Shown here piece by piece: positions 9,131 through 32,829 of a stretch of 64,000 nt of DNA. The stretch is from Nitrospinaceae bacterium (GTDB lineage Bacteria; Nitrospinota_A; UBA7883; JAJDBK01), in NCBI GenBank assembly GCA_029261405.1, contig JAJDBK010000079.1, positions 62,001 to 126,000 on the forward strand, in the 5' to 3' direction. The position numbers were made by a program, and so were the translations under genes. The first letter of the stretch is position 1; the number at the start of each line of letters is the position of its first letter. The notes beneath the pieces were generated by a model. That model searched no databases and was not told where the DNA came from. It worked only from the letters and a program-made list of their open reading frames with translations.

Positions 9131-9132
9131 CG

Positions 9133-9564: not shown

Positions 9565-9567
9565 TTT

Positions 9568-9834: not shown

Positions 9835-9894
9835 TTTTTCTCCTTCCATAGACCCGGCGAACCGCCTCAGCACAGCTCGCCGGGAGTCATATCA

Positions 9895-10818: not shown

Positions 10819-10962
10819 CAGATCCTGCAGGTGACTCGACAAAAGGACGGGTGTTACGCCGCTTAAGCTCGACAATACCGCAACCGTGAATATGGTTACG
10901 ATGGTTAACATATGAAACATGGTCTCTTATTCTCCTGATTGTTTGGTTTACGTCTGATCTTC

Positions 10963-11616: not shown

Positions 11617-11653
11617 TCTTCTCTCCTTGGGGGTGATTGCACGATGAACCTGT

Positions 11654-13874: not shown

Positions 13875-13902
13875 TTCATGCTTTCGTTAATAGTTGTTAC
13901 GT

Positions 13903-15456: not shown

Positions 15457-15890
15457 CAGTCGATCACCTTGTCCGCCGCCGCTTCCAGGTATCCGGCTAC
15501 GATTACCGCCGTTTCAGGATGTCCTTCGTTTTCCAACATGGTGACAAGAGCAGAAGAAAATTCGGCTAAAACAGTTCTGGGGTCCTGGGAACGTCTCAGC
15601 TCTTTTTGCGCGTTTAAAAGTCCGGCGACCGCCCTGACATCACCCTCTTTCGCTTTTTCGCCGAGCGCTTTTAACGCTTCTACCAGATCCTTGCTGATTC
15701 CACGTTCCACGGAGAGCCACGATCTTCGGTCAGCGTTCCATTTCTCTTTATCCGCCCTGGCCTCGATCAAGGCGACATCGAGTCCGGTCTTCTCCGATAT
15801 GGTCTCAATTGTTCTCTGACCGAAAACGAACTGACGGTAAGCTTCTTCATAAAGGAAGTCATGCGGCTTTTTAGCGTTACAGGAGGTCAT
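15456..15890 (-). CDS. Terminase small-subunit-like protein (DUF1804 type)
   Basis: A 144-residue helical protein with an N-terminal helix-turn-helix-like part ('EEAYRQFVFGQRTIETISEKTGLDVALIEARADKEKW'), the usual DNA-binding start of phage small terminases and of Mu gp27/DUF1804 proteins. The 'YEEAYRQFVFG...IAEKTG' pattern and the 'EKWNADRRSW' stretch match that type. It overlaps both neighbours (4 bases upstream, 1 base downstream), so it is coupled to the large subunit. DNA recognition at pac sites is the inferred role. Confidence 0.75.
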   Translation of the reverse strand: MTSCNAKKPHDFLYEEAYRQFVFGQRTIETISEKTGLDVALIEARADKEKWNADRRSWLSVERGISKDLVEALKALGEKAKEGDVRAVAGLLNAQKELRRSQDPRTVLAEFSSALVTMLENEGHPETAVIVAGYLEAAADKVID

Positions 15891-16486
15891 CGGTGCGAAA
15901 CTCCGATATCAAACTCATCCCCAGCCAGAATGTCGCATCCTTTACTGCTGATCTTTGCAGTGTAGTTGCTTGCGGAACCGATCCTGATGGTCTTCATTTC
16001 AATAGCGCCCTTGCCTGACAAATACCAGAGTTGGTACTGAATCTCCGGGAGATCTACATGAAAGAAACCATCCTCTATAAATTGCTCAACAAGATCGACA
16101 TCCTCCATAAATTCACCCGGCTTCTCGTTTAAGTGAGCAAGAATTCCCCGGCGAATGTCTTTTTTGAGCGGAAGATTCTCCACAACAGGATCACCACTTC
16201 GCACACCGTTCACATTCGCGGCGCCTGTAAGAAGATCGACACCCGATGAAGTTATCCTGGCGGTCCACATGTCGTGTTCTTCTAACTTTTGCACATTGAG
16301 AACCGCCGACAATTTTTCACCCTCGATCCTGGAGAGGTACTCGTACTGTCTCCGAATATCCGAAACTGATAAACGAAGGTGAAACTTGCCAAGGGACTCC
16401 TTCATATGCCTGTCGGAGATGGTATGAAGGTACAGATCGTTGGCGACCTGAAGAATATGGCGACGGACTGTTCTTAACGACAACAT
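15887..16486 (-). CDS. Phage protein with duplicated winged-helix-like domain
   Basis: No named family is recognised with certainty in this 199-residue protein. It contains two related halves. Each ends in a similar strand-turn segment: 'ARITSSGVDLLTGAANVNGV' near residues 75-95 and 'AKISSKGCDILAGDEFDIGV' at 176-195. Each half is preceded by helices and a 'YLSRIEGEKLSAVL' or 'YLSGKGAIEMKTI' wing-like turn. That pattern suggests tandem winged helices, as in Mu-like proteins encoded just before the terminase (gp26-27 position). A DNA-binding role in packaging or late regulation is inference. Confidence 0.6.
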   Translation of the reverse strand: MLSLRTVRRHILQVANDLYLHTISDRHMKESLGKFHLRLSVSDIRRQYEYLSRIEGEKLSAVLNVQKLEEHDMWTARITSSGVDLLTGAANVNGVRSGDPVVENLPLKKDIRRGILAHLNEKPGEFMEDVDLVEQFIEDGFFHVDLPEIQYQLWYLSGKGAIEMKTIRIGSASNYTAKISSKGCDILAGDEFDIGVSHR

Positions 16487-16491
16487 TTCAT

Positions 16492-16815
16492 TTACTCTCC
16501 CTTATCTTCCAGACGCTCGAATCTTCGTCTCAGATCAGCCATGGCTATGCTGTATTCCCGAACGGAAACAAACCTTTCACCCGCATCGATGTCGATTTTT
16601 CTCATTGCGGCAAGGAGCCTGCATTCCAGAGCCAGATCCGATTTTTCAAGTTTCAGAATGGTTTCATTGATCTTTGCGCTTCCTCTTCCGGCGCCATAAA
16701 ACGATCTCTCCAGGCTACCTAAAGTCCGCCATACGAAGGCAAAACCACCTGTGACAAAAAGGGCCGAAATGATAAAGGCCAACCCAAAACCGAACGACGA
16801 TGAGACTGGATTCAA
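16492..16815 (-). CDS. DUF2730-like (Mu gp25) small membrane protein
   Basis: A short protein with one N-terminal transmembrane helix ('FGLAFIISALFVTGGFAFVW') and a charged helical tail with regularly spaced hydrophobics ending 'ADLRRRFERLEDKGE'. This matches the Mu gp25/DUF2730 type found just before the packaging genes. The frame can start at TTG codons from 16833 on; the TTG at 16815 has a GGAG site about nine bases upstream and is preferred, giving 107 residues. Start choice is uncertain because no ATG precedes the membrane helix. Confidence 0.6.
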   Translation of the reverse strand: MNPVSSSFGFGLAFIISALFVTGGFAFVWRTLGSLERSFYGAGRGSAKINETILKLEKSDLALECRLLAAMRKIDIDAGERFVSVREYSIAMADLRRRFERLEDKGE

Positions 16816-17067
16816 CTGCGTGCACTCCAACAAACGTTATCGTTGCGCCGACACAAACTGTGACGACGAAAACGATTCTGAACCCGGGAGGCGGTTCTGT
16901 CATCGTCCAATACGAGCCTGTAAATGGACTTGCGCCGAGTTGGAAAGAGTGGTATAGAGAGGAAAATAAAGAGGGAAGCGACTGCTACTTTAAACGAAAC
17001 TCCTGTAGCGGAGGGTAGTGTAGACCGGAAACAGCTATTACCAGATAGAGCGGATAAGCAACAGCCG

Positions 17068-17796
17068 TCAGACGCGACGGCCGATCCAGACTACCCTGCC
17101 AACCACCCGGAGCAGTTCGGTCGCCTCGCTCGGCGGTGATATATGGTCGCTATAATTCGGATTGTCGCTCTTGATACAAACTCCCCCGTTCAACAGCTTC
17201 TGCAACCGTTTAACCATCAGCGTGTCATCTATCCGGATTACATATATTGCGTCATCCTCCACAGCGTTGACTCCATGATCCACGAGAAGGGTATCTCCAT
17301 TGCTGATCGTAGGGGACATGCTGTCACCCTGCGTGCGGATCAGTTTCAGACTTGCAGGGTTAAGAGATTCACTTTCGATCCACTCACGACTGAACGCAAG
17401 ATGACCCACAACACTCTCCCGATCAACAAAACTGCCAGCGCCACTACTGGCAAAAACGTCGTAAAGCGGCAACAGAAAAAAATCTTCCCGAAGAGCGCTA
17501 TCATCGGAACTTACCTTAAGAGGAATTGCGGGACCTGCAACCGTATTTGAACTATCAACGGAGTTATTGGAGCCAACAACACGACCCGACACAAGCCAGT
17601 TGATATCCCGACCCGATTTTTCGCAGGTTATCTCGATTATACGATTCAGCTTGTCCAGGCCAGGGGTCACCTCACCCCCTTCATAACGGGAAATCATGTT
17701 CTGACTTACTCCTAAAAGCAGGGCAAATTCTTTCTGGTTCATTTCCACAGACTTCCTAAGTACGCGAATTCTATCGCCTACAGCTATATTATTCAC
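17068..17796 (-). CDS. Phage repressor, XRE HTH plus S24 (LexA/CI-type) autoprotease
   Basis: A 242-residue repressor that should hold the prophage silent. Residues 5-60 form an XRE helix-turn-helix ('NQKEFALLLGVSQNMISRYEGGEVTPG'). The C-terminal S24 domain has the catalytic serine in 'GDSMSPT' (Ser159) and lysine in 'MVKRLQ' (Lys196), with a plausible Ala-Gly cleavage site at 120-121. This layout implies RecA/SOS-induced self-cleavage, unlike the Mu c repressor. The start is GTG at 17796 with AAGGA eight bases upstream, inside a palindrome that may serve autoregulation. The late genes lie downstream in the same orientation after a 250-base gap. Confidence 0.9.
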   Translation of the reverse strand: MNNIAVGDRIRVLRKSVEMNQKEFALLLGVSQNMISRYEGGEVTPGLDKLNRIIEITCEKSGRDINWLVSGRVVGSNNSVDSSNTVAGPAIPLKVSSDDSALREDFFLLPLYDVFASSGAGSFVDRESVVGHLAFSREWIESESLNPASLKLIRTQGDSMSPTISNGDTLLVDHGVNAVEDDAIYVIRIDDTLMVKRLQKLLNGGVCIKSDNPNYSDHISPPSEATELLRVVGRVVWIGRRV

Positions 17797-18537: not shown

Positions 18538-19497
18538 TTAACCCTTGGTCACCTGGTTTCTACCGTTTTCCTTGGAGCGATACAAAGCGGCGTCAGCTTT
18601 GTCAATGAGAGCCTTATAACCACTCATACCTGTATGGCGTTGCGCCACACCGATGCTGATCGTAACACCAATCTTCTGTTTATCGTAATCGACAGGCTCA
18701 GCCCCAACAACTGAACAAAGTTTTTCAGCGATCCTGAAAGCCCCATCCATCTCCGTTTCCGGGAGAATCACACCGAATTCTTCACCCCCGTACCGACCGA
18801 ACACATCGGAACTGCGCAAGGTCTCCTTGGCTTTGGCGGCGACTTCCTGCAATACTGTGTCTCCGGCAAGATGCCCATAATCGTCGTTCACCTTCTTGAA
18901 GTGATCGAGGTCAAACATGAGATACGCGAGATCTTTTTTGTATCTCATGGCCCTTTTGAACTCGTCTTCGAGCCGCTCTTCCAGGTGGAGCCGGTTGAAT
19001 ACACCTGTCAATCCATCGGTATGGCTAAGTTCTTTCAGGTAGACGATTACATCGTTCGCGTCCTTCAAAGCGTTCTGGTATATGCCCACATCGGTGACAT
19101 CGGAGATGGTCACACAGACCGCTTCCACTTCACCTGCGTTATCACGAAGAGGTATGAACGTGACATCCTGGAACATATACTCGCCCGCGCCGGTTATCTG
19201 CCGGTTATGTTTAAACTTGAAAAGAAAAGGGCGCTCCTTCCAGGATGAATAGGATCGGTTTTTCAGAAGAAAAACGTTTTTCACTTTTCGCCTGACCCAG
19301 TCGGAAGGAAGTTTCGGGAATAAATCGAACAGATTTTTTCCTACAATTTCAGCAGGTTTTATACCGCTGTTTATCTCCATGAACCTGTTCCATAGCTGAA
19401 CTGTTATAGAGCGGTCGAGAACCATAATACCTATGTTTATGCTCTCGAAGAGCGACTCTGAAAACTTGATTATTCGTGAGCTGATTTGATCTTGCAT
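18538..19497 (-). CDS. PAS-GGDEF diguanylate cyclase
   Basis: A 319-residue soluble enzyme that should make cyclic di-GMP from two GTP. Residues ~10-125 form a PAS domain ('INIGIMVLDRSITVQLWNRFMEINSG') with a PAC-like end. Residues ~155-318 form the GGDEF domain: 'HTDGLTGVFNRLHLEERL', 'FDLDHFKKVNDDYGHLAGD' and the active-site 'GGEEF'. An RxxD inhibitory site ('RSSD') lies five residues before it, so product inhibition is expected. It is the last gene of the chemotaxis operon, one base after cheC, which suggests the pathway output reaches c-di-GMP. Confidence 0.93.
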   Translation of the reverse strand: MQDQISSRIIKFSESLFESINIGIMVLDRSITVQLWNRFMEINSGIKPAEIVGKNLFDLFPKLPSDWVRRKVKNVFLLKNRSYSSWKERPFLFKFKHNRQITGAGEYMFQDVTFIPLRDNAGEVEAVCVTISDVTDVGIYQNALKDANDVIVYLKELSHTDGLTGVFNRLHLEERLEDEFKRAMRYKKDLAYLMFDLDHFKKVNDDYGHLAGDTVLQEVAAKAKETLRSSDVFGRYGGEEFGVILPETEMDGAFRIAEKLCSVVGAEPVDYDKQKIGVTISIGVAQRHTGMSGYKALIDKADAALYRSKENGRNQVTKG

Positions 19498-19498
19498 A

Positions 19499-20140
19499 TC
19501 AAGAGTTCTCGATCATCTCATCGAGTTTTTGTAGCAATTTTTTAATGGACGGCTCAGAAAGAAATATCAACAGGTCACAAACGAATTTTCTATCCTCAAG
19601 GCTGAATGTTATCTTCATGAGAAGTGTCTTCAGCCAACCAATTTTTTCCCGGGAAAAAATTGCGACCATCACTCTTGTAGAGTCCATGTTATGGCAGAAG
19701 ATGGAAGGTCGGGCCACATTGATTTCGCCCTGAAGCTCCTCACCAATTTCGTAAAGGCACGCTCCGACGATTATATTGCTGATATCGAGGAGAAGCTCTC
19801 GTTCCCTATGGATATCTGGCTCCGGTTGCTCGCCCATAATATCCGAAATGGAAATGATGGAGTCCTCTCCGAATATAACCAGAGCTTCGCCGGTAAGATA
19901 ATTCTCAAATCCCATCCTGACAATAGAGACCTTGCTTGTACTGCTGGGACACGAGGAGAGGGGTTGAATGGAGTTGACGACATCGGTAGCTGACACCATC
20001 TGGATTTTCGGCACTTGAAGTTCCACGAATTCGTCCAGGACTTTTGCCAGGTCCGCGCCCGCCTTACCCATGGCAAGGTTTGCCGTTTCCGCCAGCAGGT
20101 CCAGTTGATCCTCGCTAAACTCCATATCCTTGATATTCAT
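19499..20140 (-). CDS. cheC: CheC-family CheY-P phosphatase
   Basis: A 213-residue protein of the CheC type, which dephosphorylates CheY-P. The first half has the catalytic signature 'DLLAETANLAMGKAG', with Glu and Asn in the ExxN pattern. The second, related half has 'LLLDISNIIVGACL', where Asp replaces the Glu (DxxN), so that site may be weak or inactive. It overlaps the upstream receiver gene by four bases and abuts the cyclase gene. The pairing with a receiver immediately upstream suggests that this receiver is its substrate. Confidence 0.85.
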   Translation of the reverse strand: MNIKDMEFSEDQLDLLAETANLAMGKAGADLAKVLDEFVELQVPKIQMVSATDVVNSIQPLSSCPSSTSKVSIVRMGFENYLTGEALVIFGEDSIISISDIMGEQPEPDIHRERELLLDISNIIVGACLYEIGEELQGEINVARPSIFCHNMDSTRVMVAIFSREKIGWLKTLLMKITFSLEDRKFVCDLLIFLSEPSIKKLLQKLDEMIENS

Positions 20141-20505
20141 ACGATTCCGAGTTCTTGTAGAACTACTTCGATTCTCTCTTTTTTAACAGGTTTTTCGATG
20201 AACGCCAACGCTCCCGACGCAAGAACACGTTCCTTGGCTTTAGGTTGGATATTGGCCGACATAACCACTATTTTAGTCTTGAGACCCTCGTCTTTCAGCC
20301 TTTCCAAAACATCAAAACCGGTAATATCCGGCATGTTAAGGTCCAGCGTCATAAAATCAAACTTCCCGGAAAGAGCTTCGATGACCGCATCCTCACCTCT
20401 GGAGACCTCAGTAAAGTTAATATCCTCAATCAGCCCCTTCAGAACATCTCTGGTCATTCTGCGGATCAGGTTCGAGTCGTCCACAAGCAATACTTCAAAC
20501 GCCAT
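20137..20505 (-). CDS. Single-domain response regulator (CheY-like)
   Basis: From the ATG at 20505 (AGGGA six bases upstream) the protein has 122 residues; an upstream extension to 20532 is less likely. The receiver fold is complete: acidic pair in 'LLVDDSNLIRRM', phospho-acceptor Asp in 'FMTLDLNMPDITG', the switch Ser in 'VVMSAN' and Lys in 'FIEKPVKKE'. It lies between the HPt-like gene and cheC, four bases overlapping cheC. It probably receives phosphate from the CheA of this operon. Confidence 0.9.
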   Translation of the reverse strand: MAFEVLLVDDSNLIRRMTRDVLKGLIEDINFTEVSRGEDAVIEALSGKFDFMTLDLNMPDITGFDVLERLKDEGLKTKIVVMSANIQPKAKERVLASGALAFIEKPVKKERIEVVLQELGIV

Positions 20506-20565
20506 GTTATTCCCTGTAAAGTAGTTCCACAAAAAACAGTGTTACCGGTCTATTAAAACGTGGTC

Positions 20566-22116
20566 TTATTTCGAGATACGTTCACCATCGAAAACAATCA
20601 TCTTCCCGCCAGGGTCAATACTCTTGATCTTTTCCGAAATAACATCAGGCGTAATGGAGGAAGTGAGAATAAATTCAAAATAAGTACGCTCTTCAAAAAA
20701 CACCGACCTGCTGGTAATAGGATTCGTATCTTCATTCAGCCAGTTAACAAACAATTCTGTTACCGTTTCGTCAGACTCCAAATCGGCGAGTATAGCGTAG
20801 ATATGCTCACCCCTACTGAGTGAAACCATCAGATCCTTGCAGTTCTCTGTGGTAAGTAACTCCAGAAATTTCTTCTCCACACCCAACCCGGACAGATATT
20901 CGATCATCTGATCGTAGCTTTTCTCCCTGACCCCAACGTTCAGGTTCAGGATAACCTGCTTCAAGTTCTCGGTCAGCTCACTAACCTCATCGTCGAAATC
21001 GCTCTCACCATACAGGAGAAGATCGCCAGCGCAACGCTCCGAGAGCTTTATCGCCTTGACGGCCAACGGCGCCAGCCTTTCGTCACTACCAAACTCGCCA
21101 TGAGCGATTCTGCCAAAAATATCAATCTGGGTAAGAACAAGATTATGAAGAGATGGGTTTGGAGCTATCAGTTGAACTTGTACGTCGATAAGTTTCAGAA
21201 GCTCTACGACAGATTCAGCGCTTTCCTGTTCATTAATATCTGAAAAATCGCTGTCGCGATGACGTTTGATAGCCGGAATCGCCTTTTCAAACAGCTTTTC
21301 GAAATCATTGAGAAGAACCGGCTGAAGGGACTTTATGAATACAGCGGAGCCGACATCAATGTCCATGTCCGCCTCAATCCGGTCAATCATCGATTTGACG
21401 AAACCGATGTTGGTAATGTAATTATTTCGGGCCGATTCATCCAGAGAGCCTTGTTCTGGCAAAAGTTTTTCAAGCTCCTCCATCGAATGGCTGGCGTTTG
21501 CAAAGCCGATCCCGTCGGCGGCTTGTCTGAGAGCCTCCAAAGCGGTGGAAACCCTGGACCTGTCTTCGGTCGAGCCAAGATACCCGGCGTCCAACGCATG
21601 CGCAACATGGGGTATATTTTCGCTGATAATACTACCGAAAAAAATCAGAAGCCCCGGATCCGCCACGGCGTGATCCGAAACATCCGTGGCCGATTCTAAC
21701 CCCGGCTCCTGTTTTTCTTCATGTGCAATGTTTTCAAACCTTCCCCCGGCTTCTTTTATAGCCGCAAGCAAGGGTTCGGGAGGCGCAATGTCCGCCTTTT
21801 GCCCTACAACATCAGGAAGTGTATTCTTTATATGGGTGACCGCCTCAAGAAGAAGACCAGCGGTTTTCTCGTCAAGCGGCTCACCGGAGTTGTGGAAGGC
21901 GGCCAGGAGTAGAGCGCTTTCACCCGCCAGAGTTGCGGTTCCACCGATTTTCATGGCTTCCGACAGTTCTTTGATAAGCCCCAGACAACGAAGGCAATCC
22001 CTGGCTCCTGTTACCGAATCGGCGGGAGTATCAGCAAGGCTCGCCTCAATGGCGTCGACACACACCGTTGTTTCATCCTTGTAGTGAGTCCAAAGCTCTT
22101 CCGTAAACTCGCTCAT
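20566..22116 (-). CDS. HPt-like helical protein of the chemotaxis operon, unnamed
   Basis: A 516-residue soluble protein that I cannot name. It is helical and acidic, with two or three segments that look like HPt bundles (around residues 1-100, 150-235 and 260-390). None contains the HxxKG phosphorylation motif seen in the CheA of the same operon. The last ~110 residues form a separate alpha/beta part ending 'PGGKMIVFDGERISK'. It may be a non-phosphorylatable scaffold or a phosphatase-like partner of the flanking receivers. That is inference from neighbourhood and helix pattern. Confidence 0.6.
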   Translation of the reverse strand: MSEFTEELWTHYKDETTVCVDAIEASLADTPADSVTGARDCLRCLGLIKELSEAMKIGGTATLAGESALLLAAFHNSGEPLDEKTAGLLLEAVTHIKNTLPDVVGQKADIAPPEPLLAAIKEAGGRFENIAHEEKQEPGLESATDVSDHAVADPGLLIFFGSIISENIPHVAHALDAGYLGSTEDRSRVSTALEALRQAADGIGFANASHSMEELEKLLPEQGSLDESARNNYITNIGFVKSMIDRIEADMDIDVGSAVFIKSLQPVLLNDFEKLFEKAIPAIKRHRDSDFSDINEQESAESVVELLKLIDVQVQLIAPNPSLHNLVLTQIDIFGRIAHGEFGSDERLAPLAVKAIKLSERCAGDLLLYGESDFDDEVSELTENLKQVILNLNVGVREKSYDQMIEYLSGLGVEKKFLELLTTENCKDLMVSLSRGEHIYAILADLESDETVTELFVNWLNEDTNPITSRSVFFEERTYFEFILTSSITPDVISEKIKSIDPGGKMIVFDGERISK

Positions 22117-22172
22117 CCGCTATCCTTAACCGTGTTGCAGTAAGAAACGCCTGGCAATGTCACTACGCCGTA

Positions 22173-22586
22173 TCAGCTTCTGTTGGGCAGACCGCAAGCC
22201 TTGCGAACCGCCTTTACGATTTCATGACCCCTCTTCCGTTCCAGATCAAGGCTGACTCCACCCGATGGTTTCGGTATTACATCGACCGCCCCCAACTGTC
22301 TGACCTCTGTGGAAACCGAACTTCCGGCCTGGGTCAGGGAGGAGAGGACCACCACTTTCGCCTTGCTGATAAGTTTGACTCTTTTGAGAAACTCCACACC
22401 GTCCATTACCGGCATCTCAATATCGAGCAGGATAATGTCAGGATTCAGCGACTTGGTCTTCTGTAACGCTACCTCACCATTATTGGCGTCACCAACCACC
22501 TCGATATCGGGATCGGAGCCTACGATATCTTTCACCATCTTTCTCATCATCATCGAATCATCGACAACCATTACTTTAATAGCCAT
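22173..22586 (-). CDS. Single-domain response regulator (CheY / CheB-receiver-like)
   Basis: The ATG at 22586 has GGGAG six bases upstream and gives 137 residues; a TTG at 22598 is open but poorer. The receiver has 'VMVVDDSMMMRKMV', phospho-Asp in 'IILLDIEMPVMDG', 'VVVLSSLTQAGS' and Lys in 'VIPKPSGG'. The 'SSLTQAGSS...AVDVIPKPSGG' part resembles the receiver of CheB, ending in what looks like a cut-off CheB linker. It may have come from a duplicated cheB that lost its esterase half. It follows the PilB-like ATPase gene. Confidence 0.88.
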   Translation of the reverse strand: MAIKVMVVDDSMMMRKMVKDIVGSDPDIEVVGDANNGEVALQKTKSLNPDIILLDIEMPVMDGVEFLKRVKLISKAKVVVLSSLTQAGSSVSTEVRQLGAVDVIPKPSGGVSLDLERKRGHEIVKAVRKACGLPNRS

Positions 22587-22628
22587 AATTACTCCCAAGG
22601 ACGTATTTCATCGCCGGTTGAACGCACA

Positions 22629-24854
22629 TTATCCCACAGCAACCTTGCGTAGCTGTGAAATATCACTGTGTCCCTTAATTATCTTTAAGATACCATCTTG
22701 CATGAGCGTACGCATCCCCTGCTTTATACCCATCGCCTGAATTTGGGCCGCAGTCGCTTTTTGATGGATCAATGTAGCTATTTCAGGAGTGCTGACCAGC
22801 AACTCGTGGATGCCTGTGCGCCCTTTATACCCTGTTCCACCACAGGCTTCGCACCCGTTGGGGATAAAAAGTTTAAAACTTCCCCCTTTTAAACCGATCT
22901 CATCGAAATGCTCCTCTCCGTAGTACATTTTCAGCATCGCCAATTCGTCCCCGGTGGCGTCGTACGGTTTCTTGCATTTTTTGCACAATGTCCTCATCAG
23001 ACGTTGAGCCAGCACTCCGAGAAGGGCGTCCGAAAAGTTTATCGGGTCAAGCCCCAGCTCCAGCAGTCGTGTGACCGTCTCGGCGGCGGAGTTGGTATGG
23101 AGAGTCGAGAGAACAAGATGCCCCGTTAGTGAAGCCTCCACCCCGATAGTGGCGGTCTCCTCATCACGCATTTCTCCGATCATGATGACATCCGGGTCCG
23201 CCCTGAGAAAGGAGCGTAATGCGCTGGCAAAATTAAGCCCGATCTTTGAGTGCATCTGCACCTGGTTTAATCCCTGCTGGGTTATCTCCACCGGATCCTC
23301 AGCAGTCCATATCACTCTTTCCGGAGTATTGATATGGCCAAGAACAGCGTGCAGGGTGGTTGTCTTCCCGGAGCCTGTGGGGCCAACCACCAGAAAGATA
23401 CCGTGAGGCCGGTCGGCGAGTTTAATGGTCTCTTTTAAGTTCCTGCCGCTCAGATTGAGGTTTTCAAGCGGCATAGGTTCGCTTGACGCAAGGATACGCA
23501 TAACAACGTTCTCGCCAAAAACGGTGGGCACCGTGGCCACACGAAACTCCACTCGTTTCCCCTCTATGTCGGTAAAGAATTTTCCGTCTTGCGGTTTTCT
23601 ACGTTCCGATATGTCAAGACGGGACATTATCTTTATCCTGGCGGCGACCGCCTGGGCCTGTTTTGCCACGATCTTCATGTTGTCGCGACAAGCGCCGTCG
23701 ATTCGGAACCGAACGATGGTAGGGCTGTCGCCTCTTCTGGTCTGGATATGGATATCGGACGCTCCGGCGTTATAGGCTGTAGCCAGAATAGAGTCCACAA
23801 GCTTTATAACATCTTCGCTGATGTCATCCTCATCAGCGGTAACTTTCCCCTTTTTGGCCATTCCAGCGCCGACCAGGGGAGCCTCCTGAATTTCAGGGTC
23901 TTCTTTATCTTTCAGGTCATCCTTGCGGACGCGTTCGGCGTTGTCTATAAAGCTCAATATTTGTTCAGGCAAACCGACCATGAAAGCGTAGTTTTTTGCG
24001 CCTAACAGCCCCTCTATCTCCATTATTCTCTGCATATCGGTAGGGTCGTCGATAAGGATATAGGCTTTATCTTTATCGCCTGAGATCGGAACCCATGTAT
24101 TGGAGCGCATATAACTCTCTTTAACATTGCTCACAAGCTCCGCCGGGATTGACATGGATGGATCATATTCCATGAACGGCACCATGTAATACCGTTCCAG
24201 CGAAATGGCCACATCCTCAAAAGGGATCTTCCCTTCCGTTATCAGTACTTGTGCGATGGAAGAGCCAGATTTGTTGGCCATCAATGTATACTGTTTAAGC
24301 TCAGCCTGAGTGACGCTTTTCATCTGAATCAGATGCTCGAAAGGGGCGGTTGTCGCCTGCATCTCCGTGTGAACCTTGCCGCCTATGGTTTTACCTATAC
24401 GTTGCACGATGGCCAGATCGTTTTTTGTAAACGCGCCTCTCCTCTTATTGAACACAACCATGACACCGAGCGGCACTGCGCCAGGTTTAATCGGAGCGGC
24501 CAACATGGAAGTGACTTTAATATCCCTCTGGTCGGTGTTGAACTTGAGGTGAGCGTGGATTTTTGTAAGCCCGTCGGCGTCACCAACATCAGCGATGGCC
24601 AGCGGTTTTTGGGAGAGGGCTACGATACCGGGAATCGAAGAGGTGGAAAGAGGAAGCCGTCGGCTTTTGAAGATGGTATGAGTAGCGTATTTCTGAAGGA
24701 TGGCTTCACCACCGCTCTGCCGCTCGTACAAGATAAACCCTTCCACCCCAAGAACTGTAAGAATTGAAGATTTCACCTTGGGGAGAGCCACATCGAGGGT
24801 ATTGGTGGCTTCTATCTTGCGACAGATATCGAGAACCGCTTTTTGTAGATCCAT
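22629..24854 (-). CDS. GAF-MshEN-PilB/GspE-type ATPase
   Basis: A 741-residue hexameric-motor ATPase of the type II secretion / type IV pilus extension family. Residues ~5-165 are a GAF domain, ~170-305 an MshEN (T2SSE_N) domain, which binds c-di-GMP in MshE, and ~340-735 the motor. Walker A 'GPTGSGKTTT' lies at 491-500; the Asp box and 'IMIGEMRDEETA' Walker B and 'LTGHLVLSTLHTN' His box follow. Two CxxC pairs ('CKKC', 'CEAC') form the zinc site of extension ATPases. Inside a chemotaxis operon it suggests pilus-based motility under signalling and c-di-GMP control. Confidence 0.9.
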   Translation of the reverse strand: MDLQKAVLDICRKIEATNTLDVALPKVKSSILTVLGVEGFILYERQSGGEAILQKYATHTIFKSRRLPLSTSSIPGIVALSQKPLAIADVGDADGLTKIHAHLKFNTDQRDIKVTSMLAAPIKPGAVPLGVMVVFNKRRGAFTKNDLAIVQRIGKTIGGKVHTEMQATTAPFEHLIQMKSVTQAELKQYTLMANKSGSSIAQVLITEGKIPFEDVAISLERYYMVPFMEYDPSMSIPAELVSNVKESYMRSNTWVPISGDKDKAYILIDDPTDMQRIMEIEGLLGAKNYAFMVGLPEQILSFIDNAERVRKDDLKDKEDPEIQEAPLVGAGMAKKGKVTADEDDISEDVIKLVDSILATAYNAGASDIHIQTRRGDSPTIVRFRIDGACRDNMKIVAKQAQAVAARIKIMSRLDISERRKPQDGKFFTDIEGKRVEFRVATVPTVFGENVVMRILASSEPMPLENLNLSGRNLKETIKLADRPHGIFLVVGPTGSGKTTTLHAVLGHINTPERVIWTAEDPVEITQQGLNQVQMHSKIGLNFASALRSFLRADPDVIMIGEMRDEETATIGVEASLTGHLVLSTLHTNSAAETVTRLLELGLDPINFSDALLGVLAQRLMRTLCKKCKKPYDATGDELAMLKMYYGEEHFDEIGLKGGSFKLFIPNGCEACGGTGYKGRTGIHELLVSTPEIATLIHQKATAAQIQAMGIKQGMRTLMQDGILKIIKGHSDISQLRKVAVG

Positions 24855-24892
24855 TTTACCTCTGCGTTAACCGTTTAAAGACGCTGGTTTTA

Positions 24893-26017
24893 TCATTCTC
24901 TTCCCAGACTGCCAATAGTAAGACTTTCGGACCAGTTTGCCAATATTTTGCCTATATCGGCAATATCAAGCGTCCGGCTTGCCACACCTGCTTCGATAGC
25001 CGCCGTCGGCATCCCGTCCACAATGCATGTTTCAGGTTGCTGGACTAAAACAGGAAAGTTCCTCTTTACAAATTCTTTGGCGCCCTTGACACCGTCATCT
25101 CCCATACCTGTCATTATCACCGCAACCGGGCTTTTGGCTACAGCCGCCGCTGACATAAAAAGCAGATCAGCCGAAGGTTTGTAAGGGGTCTTCGGCCCCT
25201 CCCTCACCCGGAGGACAAACTGCCCTCTGCCGTCTTTTAATATCGTCAGGTTCTTCTCACCCGGGGCGATGACAACCTCCCCGGCGCAGAGAACCAGCCC
25301 GTGCCTCCCTTCGACGGTGTTTACTCCTGTCCAGTCGGTAAGATGGACCGCAAGACTGGCGGTGAATCTGGCCGGCATATGCTGGGCTACAACCATGGGA
25401 CAGGAGAGGGCGCCTGCGCTCGAAAGCAGTTTCGCCAAGGCGGTCGGGCCACCTGTCGAAATCCCTACCACCACAAGGTCAAGCGGCTCTGCAGGCGCTA
25501 CCGTAACTTCTGAAGAAGTAGCCGTTTCGCTCTCTTCAATACCGTTTTTCAGTTCCTCTTCTTCCCGGGCGTTATCGGTATCAACGCTCTTCTTCTCAAT
25601 TTGCCGGCTTATCAACGGAACCTTCCTGGCGCCCCAGTAGTGAACTTTTTCCAGCAGTTCGTTGTTTACCTGGGACAACGAAAGCTCCGCCATCGACGAT
25701 TTCTTCGATATTATGTCTACCGCGCCATTCCTCAGAGCCTGAATCGCCGCTGAGCTACCCGTCTGCGTATAACTGCTGACCATGATAATGGGTCTGGGTG
25801 TCTCCCCCATAATCCTGGTGACAGCCTCAATGCCTCCCAATACAGGCATTTCCACATCCATGGTGATGACATCGGGTCTCAGTTTTCTGGTCATTTCAAT
25901 CGCTGATTCCCCGTTGACCGCCTCCCCGATAACCTCTATTTCAGGGTCTGGCTCCACAATCGAACGTATTGCGAATCGGAAAAATATGGAGTCGTCTACA
26001 ATCAGAAGCCTAATCAT
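24893..26017 (-). CDS. cheB: Chemoreceptor glutamate methylesterase CheB
   Basis: From the ATG at 26017 this is 374 residues beginning at the receiver domain; the frame is open to an ATG at 26041, and neither has a strong ribosome site. The receiver has 'LLIVDDSIFFRFA' and phospho-Asp in 'ITMDVEMPVLGG'. The esterase domain has the catalytic triad Ser in 'GISTGGPTAL', His in 'VAQHMPARFTASLA' and Asp in 'MTGMGDDGVKGAKEF'. It removes methyl groups from receptors to adapt signalling. No cheR appears in this operon, so methylation must be encoded elsewhere. Confidence 0.93.
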   Translation of the reverse strand: MIRLLIVDDSIFFRFAIRSIVEPDPEIEVIGEAVNGESAIEMTRKLRPDVITMDVEMPVLGGIEAVTRIMGETPRPIIMVSSYTQTGSSAAIQALRNGAVDIISKKSSMAELSLSQVNNELLEKVHYWGARKVPLISRQIEKKSVDTDNAREEEELKNGIEESETATSSEVTVAPAEPLDLVVVGISTGGPTALAKLLSSAGALSCPMVVAQHMPARFTASLAVHLTDWTGVNTVEGRHGLVLCAGEVVIAPGEKNLTILKDGRGQFVLRVREGPKTPYKPSADLLFMSAAAVAKSPVAVIMTGMGDDGVKGAKEFVKRNFPVLVQQPETCIVDGMPTAAIEAGVASRTLDIADIGKILANWSESLTIGSLGRE

Positions 26018-26065
26018 CGCATAGATCCAGGCTTCTCCCATTTACACAGGGGAACAGAGTGCGGG

Positions 26066-29000
26066 TCATGACCCGATCCTCTCCGACCCGGAGATGGTCT
26101 TCAGCAGGTTCTCTGCGTCAAGTTTTACCAGAAAATGATCCACGCCAGCTTCCAACGCAAGGGAGACGTTTTCTTCACCTGAGTAATTTGTAAGCATTAT
26201 TACCGGTTTATTCGGATATTTCCCTTTTACCCAGGTGGTAAATTCATAACCGTTCATATCTGGCATATCAAGGTCGGTTATTACCAGGTCCACATTTGCG
26301 ACATCTTTCATTCCCGCCTTGGCCCCATCGGCCAGGGTCACCTTGTAACCTGCGTCTGTGAGCAGTTCCCGCATGACGTTTCTGTGGGTCATGGAGTCGT
26401 CCACCACCAGAACCTTCAGAGCTTTTCCCATGGTGGTTTCTGTGGGAGCGGGGGCAATGGTCGTCTGGAAACTGACGCTCCTCTTTTCGCTGGCCGAGTC
26501 GATAACCTGCCCCAGGGATATGATTATGGTCACCTGATCCTGGATAATGAGAGCGCTGTCCATATCCAACCTGCCAGCGCTCTTCTGCAGGTCTTTTCGT
26601 TTTATCTTTCTTAACCCGCACAGCTCGTTAACCAGAAGACCAGCCTTGCGACCTTCGTGAGAGACAACCACCAGATAAAGTTTATCCTTGTAGCTCGGAT
26701 AGCTGAATCCTGTTATGTACGGAATTCTGGTTATCGGAAGTATCTCGCTGTTGTATTTGACCACCTCCTGACTTCCGACCCGTTTTACATGCCCCTCCTC
26801 AATAATATCTATATTGTTAATCCCTTTTAATTCAATGCCGTATCTTTCCACACCACCATCGTCCAGAAGAAGAATCAACTCCTCTAGCTCCAGACGGCCC
26901 GCCTTCTTCTCAACTTCAGAGACCTCCAACTCCATGAGTCTGGCCTCTTTCATTATCTGCGCTACGTCGAGAATAAGGGCGATGGCGCCATCTCCCAGGA
27001 TGGTGGCGCCGGAGAGAAACGCCGGCTCGAAGATATCCTTGAGCACGTCGAGCGGTTTTATCAGCACTTCCTCCTGACCAATGGTCCTGTCCACTACAAG
27101 ACCGACCTGCTTGATACCGATCTTTAACACCACCACATCCTGCTGATGCGAGGAAGCGTCATCGCCGTCATCGTCGAGAGCCAGCAGTTTTCGCAAAAAA
27201 ACCACCGGAAGTATCTCGTCTCTCAGGCGAACCACAGGCGCTCCACTGATCTGTTCTATACCGTTGGCTTCTATTCTTATGGTCTCCATGACGGAGAAGA
27301 GAGGGAGCGCAAATCGTTCATCCTTGACCTGGCAAAGCAGGGTCTGCATGATAGCCAGGGTCAGAGGAATCCTTATCTTTACTCCGGCGCCGACACCCAC
27401 CTCCGACTGAAGGTCGATCTGTCCTTTTAGTTGTTCTATATTTGTCTTTACGACATCCATTCCGACTCCACGGCCCGATACGTCGGAGACTTTTTTAGCG
27501 GTGGAGAAACCTGGATGAAAGATCAACGCCAACTTATCCGCCTCGCTTAACCCCTCTGCGGCCGCAACATCGAGAAGCCCCTTTTCCACCGCCAGTCGCT
27601 TGATGACTTCAGGATCGATACCCCGTCCGTCATCCGTTACCTCGATTATGATCGAGTGACCCTCCTGGAAAGCGTTGAGCTTGATCGAACCCCTCCCCGG
27701 TTTACCCGCGTTCATTCGGTCTTCGGGCGACTCGAGACCGTGATCCATGCAGTTACGAATGATGTGCATCAGTGGGTCGGATATCGCCTCGATCAGGTTC
27801 TTGTCAAGCTCCGTCTCAGCGCCGCTTATGATCAGGTCCGCCTCCTTGCCCAAGGCTCTGCAAAGATCGCGAACCACCCGATGAAACTTGCTGAAAATAG
27901 CGCCGACAGGTTGCATTCTTGTGCGCATGACAGCCGACTGTATGCTACCGGTAACCATGTCGAGCTGACCTGCGAGACTGTTAAAGTCGGAAATCTGCTT
28001 TTCTGTCCCCGCCGCTTTAGCGAACCTCTGGCTCAACTGGTTGTACCTGTTGCGCAGAAGGACAAGCTCACCAACGGAGTTCATCAGGTCGTCAAGGCGT
28101 CTGACATTTACCCTGATCGTTGTGATTTTTTCCGTTACGGAAGCTATCGACGCAACCTCCTTTGCAGGCTCGGTCGATGGTGGCTTCTGTTTTGCGGGAG
28201 CGCTTCCCCCTTTGGCGACCGATTCTATCCTCTCGATAAATGTGGAGGTTTCGATATCACCCTCGGTCATGTCCGATTCGAGGTTTTTCTTAAACCTGCG
28301 GAGGATGTCGGTGAACTCGAAGAATAGATCGATAATTCCTTTCGGAAGCGGCTCTTTTTTCTCCCGGTATTTAACCAGGGCCGTTTCCACGGCATGGCAC
28401 AAACCGCCAAGCCGCGAAAAACCGAGAGCGTTGGACATCCCTTTCATATTGTGAATCTGCCGAAAACAGGTATTTAACTCATCGACGTTGGCGTGATCTT
28501 TCTCCAGTTTCAACGTCGATACGTCGAGAACCTCTATATGCTCCCCATACTCCAGAAGGAAGTCGGGCATATAGTTCTCAAGCATCTGTCTGCGCTCGTC
28601 ATCCATCTCCAAAGCCTGCGATTCGGCCTGGGCAGGTTTCTGATGCAACTCCATCAGTTTTTTCATGAGAGGCCCCGTTTCGATATCACCCTCGGTGGCG
28701 GTGTTTTCGAGGCGTCCCTTAAAGTCGCGCAACATATCGTTGAATTCGAAAAAAAGGTCGATAAACTCCTGATTTACAGTGGCGCCACCATCCCGAAAAT
28801 CGGTCAGTGTGGTTTCAGCCGTATGGGCCAGTGTGGAGAGTCTCTCCAACTTCAGGGAGTTTGAGATACCCTTCGTGTTGTGGATGATCCGGAAGACCGC
28901 GTTCAACTGCTCCCCCTCCTCCGGCTCTTTTTCGAGTTGAAGAAGGGCGCTGTCCATTATTTCTATATTTTCACCCAGCTCCTGCAGGAAAACAGCCAGC

Positions 29001-29749
29001 AGTTTAGGCTTGATCGGCTCGGTCTCAACCGGCTCTTTTGATCCTTGATCGGGAGGGTTTTCATTTACCACAGCCTGAATACGCTCCACTATGTCACCCG
29101 TATCCAGCCCCTCATCCGAACAGCTCTTTTTGATCTCATCCCTTCCGGCCCTGAGCAGGTCATTGAAATTAAACAGTGCGTTTATGAGAGCTTCGGGGAG
29201 TTCAGCCCTGCTTTCACGGTAACCTGCCAGGAGCGACTCAATATCGTGACACAGCCCTGAAAGCCTCTCAAACCCCATGGCGTTTGAGATCCCTTTAAGG
29301 TTATGGATCTGTCTGAAACATGTGTTCAGTTCCTCATAAGCCTCCGGGTTGGCTTCAAGCATCAGCAGGGACGAGTCGAGGACTTCCACATGTTCGTTAT
29401 ATTCGAGGAAAAAATCCTCAAGATATTCTTTTATGCCGGGACCGTCTTCCGATGCGGTATCTGAGGTCGATTCGGATTCTTCAGCGGGTTCGGCCTCCGC
29501 AACCGGATCAGTATCCTCGAACTGTTCTGTATCCGCGACAGGCATACCCTCCTCATCAGGTTCGGTCTCCATGACAGGCTCTGAGATCTGCGCAGGCGCC
29601 TCTTCAGTTCTTAAATCCTCGCCGACAGTCTCTGGTTGTCCGGTTTTGTCATCAGAACCGCCACCTGAATCGTGGGTAAAGAACCTGTCAAGGATCTCCT
29701 CGTGGGTACTGAAAGGGTCACTGAACCCCGGTTTTTTCTTTTTAGCCAT
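26066..29749 (-). CDS. cheA: Hybrid CheA with three HPt domains, two CheW-like domains and a receiver
   Basis: The 1227-residue core kinase. An acidic tail (~30-100) precedes three HPt domains with HxxKG motifs at His149, His290 and His433. The first and third are closely related ('NTCFRQIHN..KG'). Dimerisation helices start near 541, then the ATPase ('RNCMDHGLE', 'DDGRGID', 'GRGVGMDVV'), then two CheW-like domains (~780-920 and ~950-1090) and a receiver from 1111 with phospho-Asp about 1159. It overlaps the ParA gene by eight bases. The plan resembles the ChpA/FrzE-type kinases used in surface motility. Confidence 0.95.
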   Translation of the reverse strand: MAKKKKPGFSDPFSTHEEILDRFFTHDSGGGSDDKTGQPETVGEDLRTEEAPAQISEPVMETEPDEEGMPVADTEQFEDTDPVAEAEPAEESESTSDTASEDGPGIKEYLEDFFLEYNEHVEVLDSSLLMLEANPEAYEELNTCFRQIHNLKGISNAMGFERLSGLCHDIESLLAGYRESRAELPEALINALFNFNDLLRAGRDEIKKSCSDEGLDTGDIVERIQAVVNENPPDQGSKEPVETEPIKPKLLAVFLQELGENIEIMDSALLQLEKEPEEGEQLNAVFRIIHNTKGISNSLKLERLSTLAHTAETTLTDFRDGGATVNQEFIDLFFEFNDMLRDFKGRLENTATEGDIETGPLMKKLMELHQKPAQAESQALEMDDERRQMLENYMPDFLLEYGEHIEVLDVSTLKLEKDHANVDELNTCFRQIHNMKGMSNALGFSRLGGLCHAVETALVKYREKKEPLPKGIIDLFFEFTDILRRFKKNLESDMTEGDIETSTFIERIESVAKGGSAPAKQKPPSTEPAKEVASIASVTEKITTIRVNVRRLDDLMNSVGELVLLRNRYNQLSQRFAKAAGTEKQISDFNSLAGQLDMVTGSIQSAVMRTRMQPVGAIFSKFHRVVRDLCRALGKEADLIISGAETELDKNLIEAISDPLMHIIRNCMDHGLESPEDRMNAGKPGRGSIKLNAFQEGHSIIIEVTDDGRGIDPEVIKRLAVEKGLLDVAAAEGLSEADKLALIFHPGFSTAKKVSDVSGRGVGMDVVKTNIEQLKGQIDLQSEVGVGAGVKIRIPLTLAIMQTLLCQVKDERFALPLFSVMETIRIEANGIEQISGAPVVRLRDEILPVVFLRKLLALDDDGDDASSHQQDVVVLKIGIKQVGLVVDRTIGQEEVLIKPLDVLKDIFEPAFLSGATILGDGAIALILDVAQIMKEARLMELEVSEVEKKAGRLELEELILLLDDGGVERYGIELKGINNIDIIEEGHVKRVGSQEVVKYNSEILPITRIPYITGFSYPSYKDKLYLVVVSHEGRKAGLLVNELCGLRKIKRKDLQKSAGRLDMDSALIIQDQVTIIISLGQVIDSASEKRSVSFQTTIAPAPTETTMGKALKVLVVDDSMTHRNVMRELLTDAGYKVTLADGAKAGMKDVANVDLVITDLDMPDMNGYEFTTWVKGKYPNKPVIMLTNYSGEENVSLALEAGVDHFLVKLDAENLLKTISGSERIGS

Positions 29750-30482
29750 TTAACGCTCTATCAACTATTTTCATGTAATCTTCCGCGCCATACGATTTTG
29801 GAGCGTAGGTAAAAATATCCTGATGGGCGCCCACAGACTCGGCAAGAGTCACGTTCTTTCTCACCGGAGTAGTCACCTTGTCACCGAAGTGTCGAGACAG
29901 GGTTTCGAGCACTTCCTGACTCTTCCGATCCCTCTTATCATAGAAGGTAGGTATTACCATCGAAACTTTCACCTCATGCCCCATTTTATCCCTGACCCAG
30001 GTAAGATTGTCTATCACCTCTCTGGCGCCTACCAGAGAGAGATAATCCATGGAGACCGGAACCACCGCTTCGGTCGAATAGAGCATTGCGTTGAGGTTGA
30101 TAAGATTCAGGGAAGGCGCGCAGTCGAGGATCACAAAGTCGGCGTTGCTGACAGGCGCCAGAGCTTTCGACAAAACTTTCTCCCTCCCCTCCCCCATGCC
30201 GGCCATGACGATTTCAGACTGAGCCAGGGTTTTATCGCTGGGTGTCACCAGCAGGTTGTTGTTTAGCGGGTAGGAGCATTCGTCAAACCCGGCGTTCTCC
30301 ACAAGCAGATGGTAGAGGTTTTTTTCGTAGGGAATGTCGAACCAGACGGCGACGTTACCCTGCGGGTCGAGATCCACGAGAAGTACTTTTTTGCCTTTGC
30401 GAGACAAACCAACGGCCAGCATAGCCGCCGACGTGGTCTTTCCCGCCCCCCCCTTCTGGTTTATGACGACTATTTTTCGCAT
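29742..30482 (-). CDS. ParA/MinD-family ATPase of the chemotaxis operon (ParC-like)
   Basis: A 246-residue Soj/ParA ATPase with the deviant Walker A 'KGGAGKTTSAAML' at residues 10-22, Walker A' 'VDLDPQGN' and Walker B 'VILDCAPSL'. In Vibrio (ParC) and Rhodobacter (PpfA) such proteins inside che operons place the chemoreceptor arrays in the cell and in daughter cells. It is coupled to cheW (1-base overlap) and cheA (8-base overlap). No ParB partner gene is present, which fits this role rather than chromosome segregation. Confidence 0.9.
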   Translation of the reverse strand: MRKIVVINQKGGAGKTTSAAMLAVGLSRKGKKVLLVDLDPQGNVAVWFDIPYEKNLYHLLVENAGFDECSYPLNNNLLVTPSDKTLAQSEIVMAGMGEGREKVLSKALAPVSNADFVILDCAPSLNLINLNAMLYSTEAVVPVSMDYLSLVGAREVIDNLTWVRDKMGHEVKVSMVIPTFYDKRDRKSQEVLETLSRHFGDKVTTPVRKNVTLAESVGAHQDIFTYAPKSYGAEDYMKIVDRALNG

Positions 30483-30967
30483 CAGTCGCGCCGGTTTGAC
30501 CCGGCGTCCGCAATGGGATCGGCCTTCAATAGCGTATGACCGGTGTCAAAGATAAAACTCTTGATATCCACAAGAACAACAAGAGCGCCAGTCTCCTTGA
30601 AAACACCATGGATATGACGCAACTCAATAATGGTTGTTTCCGAACGGACCGGCTCAATCTTCCCTTTCGGTATTTCGATAACGTTGGCAAGGGAGTCGAT
30701 CAGAACCCCTATGACCCTTGTCTCGTCAAGTTTACAGATTATTGTGCGCGAATTTTCCCCGATACTGGTCCTCGCGAAACCGAGCTTCACGCTAAGATCG
30801 ACCAGGGGAACGATCATGCCTCTCAGGTTTATCACCCCCACCAGAAATTCGGGAGCGTTTGGCACCCTTGTGACCCGAAACTCTCCGGGCAGAACAATCT
30901 CCTGAACCGTGAGAATATCGATTCCAAAAAGCTCGTCTTCAAGGGAAAATCTTATATACTTCGACAT
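30482..30967 (-). CDS. cheW: Chemotaxis coupling protein CheW
   Basis: A 161-residue CheW from the ATG at 30967 (a TTG at 30976 is also open). It links receptors to CheA. Typical segments are 'YIRFSLEDELFGIDILTVQEIV', 'FLVGVINLRGMIVPLVDL' and 'IGVLIDSLANVIEIP'. The core ends near residue 140, followed by a short tail. It is the first gene of the minus-strand operon and is divergent from the receptor gene, with about 275 bases between. The shared intergenic region could coordinate receptor and pathway expression. Confidence 0.93.
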   Translation of the reverse strand: MSKYIRFSLEDELFGIDILTVQEIVLPGEFRVTRVPNAPEFLVGVINLRGMIVPLVDLSVKLGFARTSIGENSRTIICKLDETRVIGVLIDSLANVIEIPKGKIEPVRSETTIIELRHIHGVFKETGALVVLVDIKSFIFDTGHTLLKADPIADAGSNRRD

Positions 30968-31152: not shown

Positions 31153-31242
31153 CAGAAGAATGATTTGCGCCGACACAGCGCTTTGTTATACGTTGGTCTG
31201 ATCGGGAACCCTGGAATCTCAACTCACATTAAACGAAAATTG

Positions 31243-32829
31243 ATGAAAAACTTTATACGTAGCGCAAAGTTAAACAAGGCGTTATTTTTCAACAATCGGA
31301 AGTTGGGAAAATCGCTTGAGGTCCAGGTTCTGGGCCTTATAGCGATCGTTTTTACTCTCTTTTCCGCATTCAACGTATACGTCTCCTACCACGAACAGAA
31401 GGTCCAGGCGCTCAACCAGGCGAGAAGGCAGGCTTCCGCCATAGCCGACTCCGTTTTCAGTTCTCTGAACTCCCTGATGGTTCAGGACTCCATGGACAAG
31501 AGGAAGTTCTACCTGAAACTGCTAAAACTTACCACCGGAGACCTTGATCACCTGCGTGTTTTCAGGAGCGATTCGGTGGTCACACAGTTCGGCCCCGGCC
31601 TTCCTGGAGAACAGCCGATCGACGAACTCGATTTCGAGGTTCTCAGAACGGGAAAAATGGTCACCAGACTTCTGGAGAAAGAGGGAGGAAGAAAATTAAG
31701 GTTCGTTGTGCCTTTTCTTATGTCCGAAGACAGGGGAGGTGTCAATTGCCTCGAATGTCACAACGGCAAACCGGGAGATGTGAACGGCGCCATCAGTATG
31801 GTCCTGTCTCTGGACAGCATGGATACAGCGGCTTTCAACGGTTTTGTCAAACTTGTCATTCTGAACCTGGCCGGGCTTGTGATCATGTTGGCGATGGTCA
31901 TGTATGTGCTCTACCGGCTTGTCCTCACCCCGCTCTCGAAACTCAGAAAAGGTATAGAAACCATCGAAGTGGAGTCTAACCTGGGTAAAACTATCGACGT
32001 GGACTCCGAAAACGAGGTTGGGCTTACCGCCTCGGCCTTCAACAAGATGATCCACAAGTTTCACGGAATAATAAACCATATGGCAAGCCTGGCTGACCAT
32101 CTGGCGGCGGCGACGACCGAACTATCGTTCGCTACGGAACAGAGCACCGGTCAGGCCGAGGTCCAGTCCCGAAAAGTCACCGAGATGTCCGGCTCTATCG
32201 AAGAGGTGAATAAAGCGATATCGAGCATCGCCGGTAACGCCGTAGAGATGGCCAAGAGGACAGAGCTTACCCGGCGTAACGCCATGAGTGGCGGGAAAAT
32301 CATCTCCGGTAGTTCCGCTGACATTGAAAAACTCTCCCACTACTCGCAGAAGATCGGCAACATTCTTCTGGTGATCGACGACATTGCCAAAAAGACCGAC
32401 CTTCTGGCCATCAACGCCGCTATCGAAGCGGCGAACGCCGGGGAACAGGGGAAAGGATTTGCGGTAGTAGCCGACGAGGTTCGCAAACTTGCCGAACGGA
32501 CTACCAGCGCCACAAGCGAGATAAGCCTTATGATTCAGGATATCCAGCAGTTTACCAACACCGCTTCAGAATCGATGAAGGGGAGTAGCAATGTCATGAA
32601 CAAAATTATCGTAGACACCACCAAAGTGAACCAGATGGTTGACCTTATTGCCGTCGCTACGGAGAAACAAGCCGGGATAATTAACGAAATGCTCGGCGCA
32701 GCGACTACCGTAAAAGAGTATAGCGAAGGTTTTGTGCGCTCGGCGGGGCAATCGAGAACCGTCGCCGGCGAACTTAGCGATCAGTCGATCAAACTTCAGG
32801 AAGTGGTCGATCAGTTCAAGACAAAATAG
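31243..32829 (+). CDS. Methyl-accepting chemotaxis protein with periplasmic heme-c motif
   Basis: From the ATG at 31243 the receptor has 528 residues; the frame opens at 31165 but the extra residues are not receptor-like. TM1 is near 27-47 and TM2 near 203-227. Between them the periplasmic sensor carries CLECH at 169-173, a c-type heme site as in Tll0287/DUF3365-like sensors and the Geobacter heme receptors. HAMP follows TM2, then the coiled-coil signalling domain with the hairpin '[43 protein letters not shown]' region. It may sense redox state, oxygen or nitric oxide and feed the divergent CheA. Confidence 0.93.

Follow-up and report, generated by a model that had tools for sequence, protein, structure and literature searches.

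Described systems bring PilB-family ATPases together with chemotaxis-type signalling. The PATAN-CheY regulators (PixE) of Synechocystis phototaxis bind PilB1, as reported in a passage of PMC9090330 that cites Jakob 2020 and Han 2022, and in M. xanthus PilB, a pilus motor with c-di-GMP-binding motifs, lies upstream of the Dif chemosensory pathway, to which it signals apart from pilus assembly (PMC5544727). The c-di-GMP-binding MshEN domain consists of two RLGxx...G...LxxxLxxQ motifs (PMC5013675). The locus compared here with these systems belongs to a Nitrospinaceae bacterium (GCA_029261405.1; 3.27 Mb, near-complete) and lies in a window, by which we mean the whole 64,000-nucleotide stretch of DNA analysed. 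It is a ten-gene operon of three modules, A (CheW-ParA-CheA-CheB), B (GAF-MshEN-T2SSE ATPase, REC1, HPt-type protein) and C (REC2-CheC-PAS/GGDEF), running on the minus strand from 30967 to 18538. The genes and a divergent receptor gene are given below with identities to counterparts in genomes of the same order, of which we compared G004 (the closest found, 'Nitrospirae bacterium Dive96_bin4.192'), G007 ('Nitrospinota bacterium 8_1_Oct_SF_Bin59'), G002 (another family) and G008.

31165..32829, plus strand: divergent MCP with HAMP and a signalling domain (Pfam MCPsignal 1e-35); its sensor region contains CxxCH and matches Mcp40H-20 weakly.
30482..30967, minus strand: CheW, module A; Pfam CheW 5e-29, ATG at 30967, 1-bp overlap with parA, 55% to the G004 CheW beside parA-cheA-cheB.
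29742..30482, minus strand: ParA/MinD-family ATPase, module A; Pfam AAA_31 1e-41, Soj the nearest relative of solved structure (2e-36), 65% to its G004 counterpart, where the gene order is the same.
26066..29749, minus strand: hybrid CheA, module A; three HPt (all with His), H-kinase_dim, HATPase_c, two CheW and REC, 51% over 1240 columns to G004.
24893..26041, minus strand: CheB (REC and methylesterase), module A; NCBIfam CheB subfamily 333.5 against a cut-off of 293 bits, 55% to G004.
22629..24854, minus strand: GAF-MshEN-T2SSE ATPase, module B; retains Walker A/B, the His box and the CxxC pairs but not the c-di-GMP residues of MshEN, 61% to G004.
22173..22586, minus strand: REC1, single receiver, module B; scores 138 bits with the REC portion of the CheB model, 71% to the G004 receiver directly after the ATPase.
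20566..22116, minus strand: HPt-derived 516-aa protein, phospho-histidine lost, module B; about 26-27% to its G004 counterpart, which has a true Hpt domain (4e-12).
20137..20505, minus strand: REC2, single receiver, module C; Pfam Response_reg 4e-23, REC-CheC-GGDEF order also in G002 and G004.
19499..20140, minus strand: predicted CheC-type phosphatase, module C; NCBIfam CheC 2e-11, ExxN and DxxN sites, 39% to G002.
18538..19497, minus strand: PAS-GGDEF cyclase, module C; retains the GGEEF active site and the RxxD inhibitory site, 47% to G002 over 315 aa.

An earlier, sequence-only reading of this DNA had described ten same-strand genes with these domains, and this description holds in every gene: all reading frames are intact with ATG starts and clean stop codons, and Pfam assigns CheW, AAA_31, CheA, CheB, GAF-MshEN-T2SSE, two single receivers and PAS-GGDEF. 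Successive gaps from cheW onwards are -1, -8, 24, 38, 42, 56, 60, -4 and 1 bp, i.e. none above 60 bp and three of them overlaps, and a simple terminator scan gave counts close to the shuffle mean, with nothing strong between genes. From this layout the ten genes likely share one transcript. The same reading was right that the operon lacks cheR; CheB is inside it, and family searches, from which all our counts for this genome come, place CheR (five full-length matches and one weak) only elsewhere in the genome. It had also regarded the exact gene set as undescribed, and we found no description of such a system in the open-access literature searched. Each of the three blocks recurs with its order kept in other genomes, so the gene order is not due to chance, but the full ten-gene join was found in one genome only. 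Directly downstream of the operon, at 8265-17796 of the window, lies a Mu-like prophage (virion morphogenesis protein, gpT head subunit, I protein, portal, S24/HTH repressor).

Module A and its neighbour contain the elements of a chemosensory pathway, namely a CheA with Hpt, H-kinase_dim, HATPase_c and CheW domains, in which the HPt histidines and ATP-binding motifs could be read, a CheW and a receptor. The likely receptor is the divergent MCP, which starts about 200 bp upstream of the operon and carries at residue 195 a CxxCH that suggests covalently bound haem in its sensor region; the match of this sensor to the Mcp40H-20 family is weak (9e-4) and below the Pfam cut-off. In G007 and G008, too, CheA is kept along with a nearby MCP whose signalling domain matches (50-53%) but whose sensor is different and haem-less, and no ParA was recognised beside CheA in either. 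The operon ParA is of the Soj type of the ParA family and has cheW and cheA as its neighbours, a placement also found for the ParA proteins of other chemotaxis operons. As the genome holds at least three further CheA genes, cross-talk is possible.

The ATPase had been labelled a pilus motor, and this label is not sustained. Its T2SSE motifs (Walker A, Walker B/Asp box, His box) are all present and its CxxC pairs kept, as expected of a catalytically intact T2SSE motor, and its core aligns full length with the solved PilB and GspE structures. However, it scores 480.6 bits against the PilB equivalog TIGR02538 (cut-off 675.65) and 466.5 against the GspE equivalog TIGR02533 (cut-off 630.25), whereas a paralogue on contig C76 reaches 691.9 bits with TIGR02538, above the curated cut-off, and is the genome's PilB. 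In a tree with 64 relatives (a quick tree with some long branches) the operon ATPase pairs with that of G004 (support 100), then with Gammaproteobacteria, Bdellovibrionota and Desulfovibrionales sequences (100), within a 60-sequence clade to which this genome's own PilB, GspE and TfpB-like proteins do not belong. The cut-offs, the tree and the presence of true copies rule out that it is the genome's PilB or GspE. The C76 PilB (L152 9086-11305) has a C-terminal stretch that matches the cyclic-nucleotide-binding domains of cGMP-dependent kinases (about 1e-15), and two further GAF-MshEN-T2SSE paralogues (42-43%) are encoded on contigs C68 and C45 (L148, L149), the C68 copy near a hybrid histidine kinase.

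It is possible, if on balance doubtful, that the protein is an alternative type IV pilus extension motor that shares a single PilC-like platform encoded on contig C43, twitching then being controlled, as in Pil-Chp, by direct motor exchange. The alignable catalytic core and the retained CxxC pairs are consistent with such a role, as are the PilC-like and PilT-like genes on C43; the separate clade, the score below the PilB cut-off and a degenerate N-terminal region preceded by GAF or TPR argue against it. The numbers are also awkward, with several such paralogues and few platforms: eight extension-type ATPases, plus two PilT-like ones, stand against three T2SSF platform proteins in the genome (contigs C43, C31 and C11). 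The family search found no platform gene on the window's own contig, but while two GspE genes adjoin platform genes the genome's PilB on C76 adjoins none, so the missing nearby platform is weak evidence and leaves room for a pilus role.

The wider occurrence of the clade points towards signalling. Among the best 80 relatives of the ATPase in GTDB genomes, MCP, CheW and CheA lie within about 3 kb at 11 Desulfobacterota-type loci, and some loci are common to this set and to our survey of the class of strain NaphS2, where the ATPase family is present in 76 of 85 genomes. The Desulfobacteria loci surveyed include 31 of the TPR subtype for which 3.2 kb or more of downstream sequence was read. The ATPase is directly followed by a receiver(-PAS) gene at 25 of these, the cluster REC-PAS, MCP, CheW and CheA is present at 13, and no platform gene was found in the flanks read at any. 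This cluster, TPR-MshEN-T2SSE with REC-PAS, MCP, CheW and CheA, is again one for which we found no description in the open-access literature. The GAF subtype shows no receiver, che cluster or platform at 17 loci of the NaphS2 class (one histidine-kinase-like match), and in most other relatives of this subtype that were read the ATPase has no che operon next to it, being either on its own or adjacent to a sigma-54 regulator or histidine kinase. At two loci (L045 and L043) a receiver-bearing gene of sigma-54 type lies upstream of the GAF-subtype ATPase; in Gammaproteobacteria and at Nitrospirota L046 no shared partner was found, the neighbours being mostly housekeeping genes. By gene order, the ATPase clade is tied to chemosensory genes in at least two lineages, with differing partners.

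In order-mates each module of the operon stands separately, which identifies the window operon as a join of three conserved units. G004 has module A alone at L159 (cheW-parA-cheA-cheB; 55, 65, 51 and 55% identity to the window), module B at L156, with a sigma-54 regulator, the ATPase (61%), two tandem REC1 genes (the first 71%) and the HPt protein, and module C (REC-CheC-GGDEF) at a third locus, L284. In G002 module C is a compact stand-alone REC-CheC-PAS/GGDEF operon (CheC 39%, PAS-GGDEF 47% identity), and a CheA-ParA pair lies on another contig. Separate modules in two families of the order favour, among the few genomes compared, an older separate state and a later ten-gene join; one ancient ten-gene system is not favoured, given that order-mates keep three separate operons. 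The separation in G004 and G002, and the full join in a single genome, could also mean that three unrelated signalling units were joined by chance and are co-transcribed yet independent. We consider this improbable, since modules B and C contain receivers without a kinase of their own, REC1 is CheB-like, and the joining of MCP-CheW-CheA to ATPase-REC at 13/31 Desulfobacteria loci indicates a recurring functional tie.

REC1 has by far its best match to the CheB receiver (138 bits), which fits phosphorylation by CheA. It is the best conserved of the proteins compared with G004 (71%) and adjoins the ATPase in both genomes. In G004 two tandem copies lie between the ATPase and the HPt protein (L156 12923-13953). 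The following 516-aa protein has no Pfam match, but an HPt-type bundle is indicated by a profile built from two sequences and by the fold predicted for residues 1-130; the AlphaFold model, made from two sequences (pLDDT 57 overall), shows a four-helix N-terminal domain and is usable for residues 1-130 only. Its G004 counterpart is recognised by Pfam as Hpt (4e-12) and carries the HxxKG box, and at this box the operon protein reads CLGLIKEL against GMHSVKGL in G004, the histidine being lost here and kept there. The protein that the earlier reading called HPt-like cannot carry phosphate on the usual histidine, and a role as phosphorelay HPt is ruled out by the loss of the phosphorylatable histidine that G004 retains. 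A reciprocal loss is seen in the two genomes, in the HPt protein of the window operon and in the first HPt of CheA in G004 (L159, L156), which leaves three candidate phospho-histidines in each system.

The CheX/CheC match behind the CheC assignment is a weaker one (Pfam CheX 4e-7, NCBIfam CheC 2e-11, solved CheC 3e-5), and of the protein's two active-site motifs the first is ExxN and the second DxxN, against two ExxN expected. Its 4-bp overlap with REC2, and its retention with receiver and cyclase in G002 and G004, indicate that it would most likely act on REC2. The suggestion that CheC resets the receivers is therefore plausible, but is better tied to REC2, its module C partner.

The signal could in principle run the other way, the ATPase being an input to CheA whose nucleotide state reports pilus or energy status, in the way that M. 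xanthus PilB acts upstream of Dif (PMC5544727). That precedent and the sensor-like GAF or TPR N-terminus speak for such an input, which we nevertheless think unlikely, as the adjoining receiver is better explained as taking phosphate from CheA, and we identified no ATPase-CheA contact domain of a known kind. The predicted control of the ATPase by the receiver is the best-supported step of the proposed pathway, on the strength of the conserved ATPase-receiver pair, the loss of the c-di-GMP site described below and the PixE-PilB1 precedent.

The MshEN domain is recognisable (Pfam 2e-10), and the sequence-only reading had supposed that it could bind c-di-GMP, which the residues contradict. Aligned with V. 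cholerae MshE (5htl), the operon protein carries A at the Q32 position, S at R38, A at G40 and Y at Q61; R9 and G11 are likewise absent, these columns being less sure as they lie at the end of the aligned fragment. None of these six key residues is thus present, and among 81 family members 77 have none and four have one. With the R, G and Q of both motifs lost, c-di-GMP is unlikely to reach the ATPase through MshEN, and the motif loss rules it out as a direct ligand. That c-di-GMP from the operon cyclase binds this domain, an idea prompted by a Pfam MshEN match (2e-10) and a GGDEF enzyme within one operon, is accordingly very improbable given that 0/6 of the key residues are kept here and almost none across the family. 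The cyclase itself has the GGEEF and RxxD motifs of an active diguanylate cyclase, so c-di-GMP is likely made but sensed elsewhere than at this ATPase. Of the proposed coupling between receptor kinase, ATPase and cyclase, their union in one operon stands; the link from c-di-GMP to the ATPase and the pilus-motor label are unsupported.

We have about even confidence in a chemosensory pathway with two outputs, a phosphorylated receiver acting on the ATPase and a parallel REC/CheC/cyclase branch, with positioning by ParA. Around an architecture and a recurrence that are observed, we infer phosphotransfer, receiver-ATPase binding and phenotype as follows. CheA would be controlled via CheW by the divergent MCP, which is probably a c-haem receptor, and perhaps by further receptors, and ParA would position or partition the chemosensory array. 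The three HPt domains of CheA would pass phosphate to CheB, REC1 and REC2; module A has the kinase and receives signals, and modules B and C have receivers but no kinase. CheB would serve adaptation with a CheR encoded elsewhere in the genome. REC1 would be the dedicated partner of the ATPase, binding its GAF/MshEN region when phosphorylated and switching it, and so taking the place held by c-di-GMP in MshE; the histidine-less HPt protein may be a docking partner for REC1 or CheA. The ATPase would in turn modulate a shared type IV pilus machine or signal by its own nucleotide state. In the second branch, formed by REC2, CheC and PAS-GGDEF, CheC would end the REC2 signal and the cyclase alter c-di-GMP for targets other than the operon ATPase.

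The wider pattern, in which an ATPase clade has a receiver partner and a repeated chemosensory linkage, is the more interesting result. We tentatively propose, as a possibility and not yet a probability, that a widespread PilB/GspE-type clade has left pilus assembly or secretion and is now a signalling output switched by CheA-phosphorylated receivers. If this is true, the machine that chemosensory arrays drive here is a T2SSE hexamer and neither a flagellum nor a pilus, a new type of chemosensory output, and the window fuses array, ATPase and c-di-GMP branch. In many sulfate reducers and related phyla the genome encodes several PilB-like ATPases for which no pilus or secretion system is evident. 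For these orphan ATPases gene order offers a candidate regulator in the adjoining receiver, and in some lineages a candidate upstream array, so that the role of a large, unassigned ATPase family becomes directly testable.

The operon shares elements with several known systems. Compared with the chemosensory classes F4, F5, ACF and Tfp (PMC10782961), its CheA recalls F4 in its three HPt domains and F5 in its two CheW domains. In Vibrio ParC/ParP array positioning (PMC5706961) a ParA-like ATPase is likewise tied to chemosensory arrays, but a ParP-like protein was not recognised in the operon, and the likeness to ParC is one of family and location beside cheA. The MshEN ATPases MshE and PilB have the same MshEN fold and T2SSE motor as the operon ATPase, which differs in its lost c-di-GMP motif, its extra GAF domain and the lack of a pilus locus beside it. 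The Desulfobacteria cluster (e.g. strain NaphS2, L056 9551-15756) has an ATPase of the same clade with a receiver directly after it and the chemosensory core next; however, it has TPR instead of GAF and a short CheA, and ParA, CheB, CheC and GGDEF were not recognised there. In Synechocystis, to judge from the phototaxis passage of PMC9090330, a PilB-family ATPase is under the control of a CheY-type receiver that binds it directly, as is proposed here, but in the window the receiver is a bare CheB-like REC in the operon of CheA, with no PATAN domain, and the ATPase is not a canonical PilB. M. xanthus PilB/Dif resembles the window in having a PilB ATPase, MCP/CheW/CheA, and CheY-like and CheC-like (DifG) proteins in one pathway (PMC5544727), whereas the window ATPase belongs to a separate clade without c-di-GMP motifs, and ParA and a GGDEF cyclase are added.
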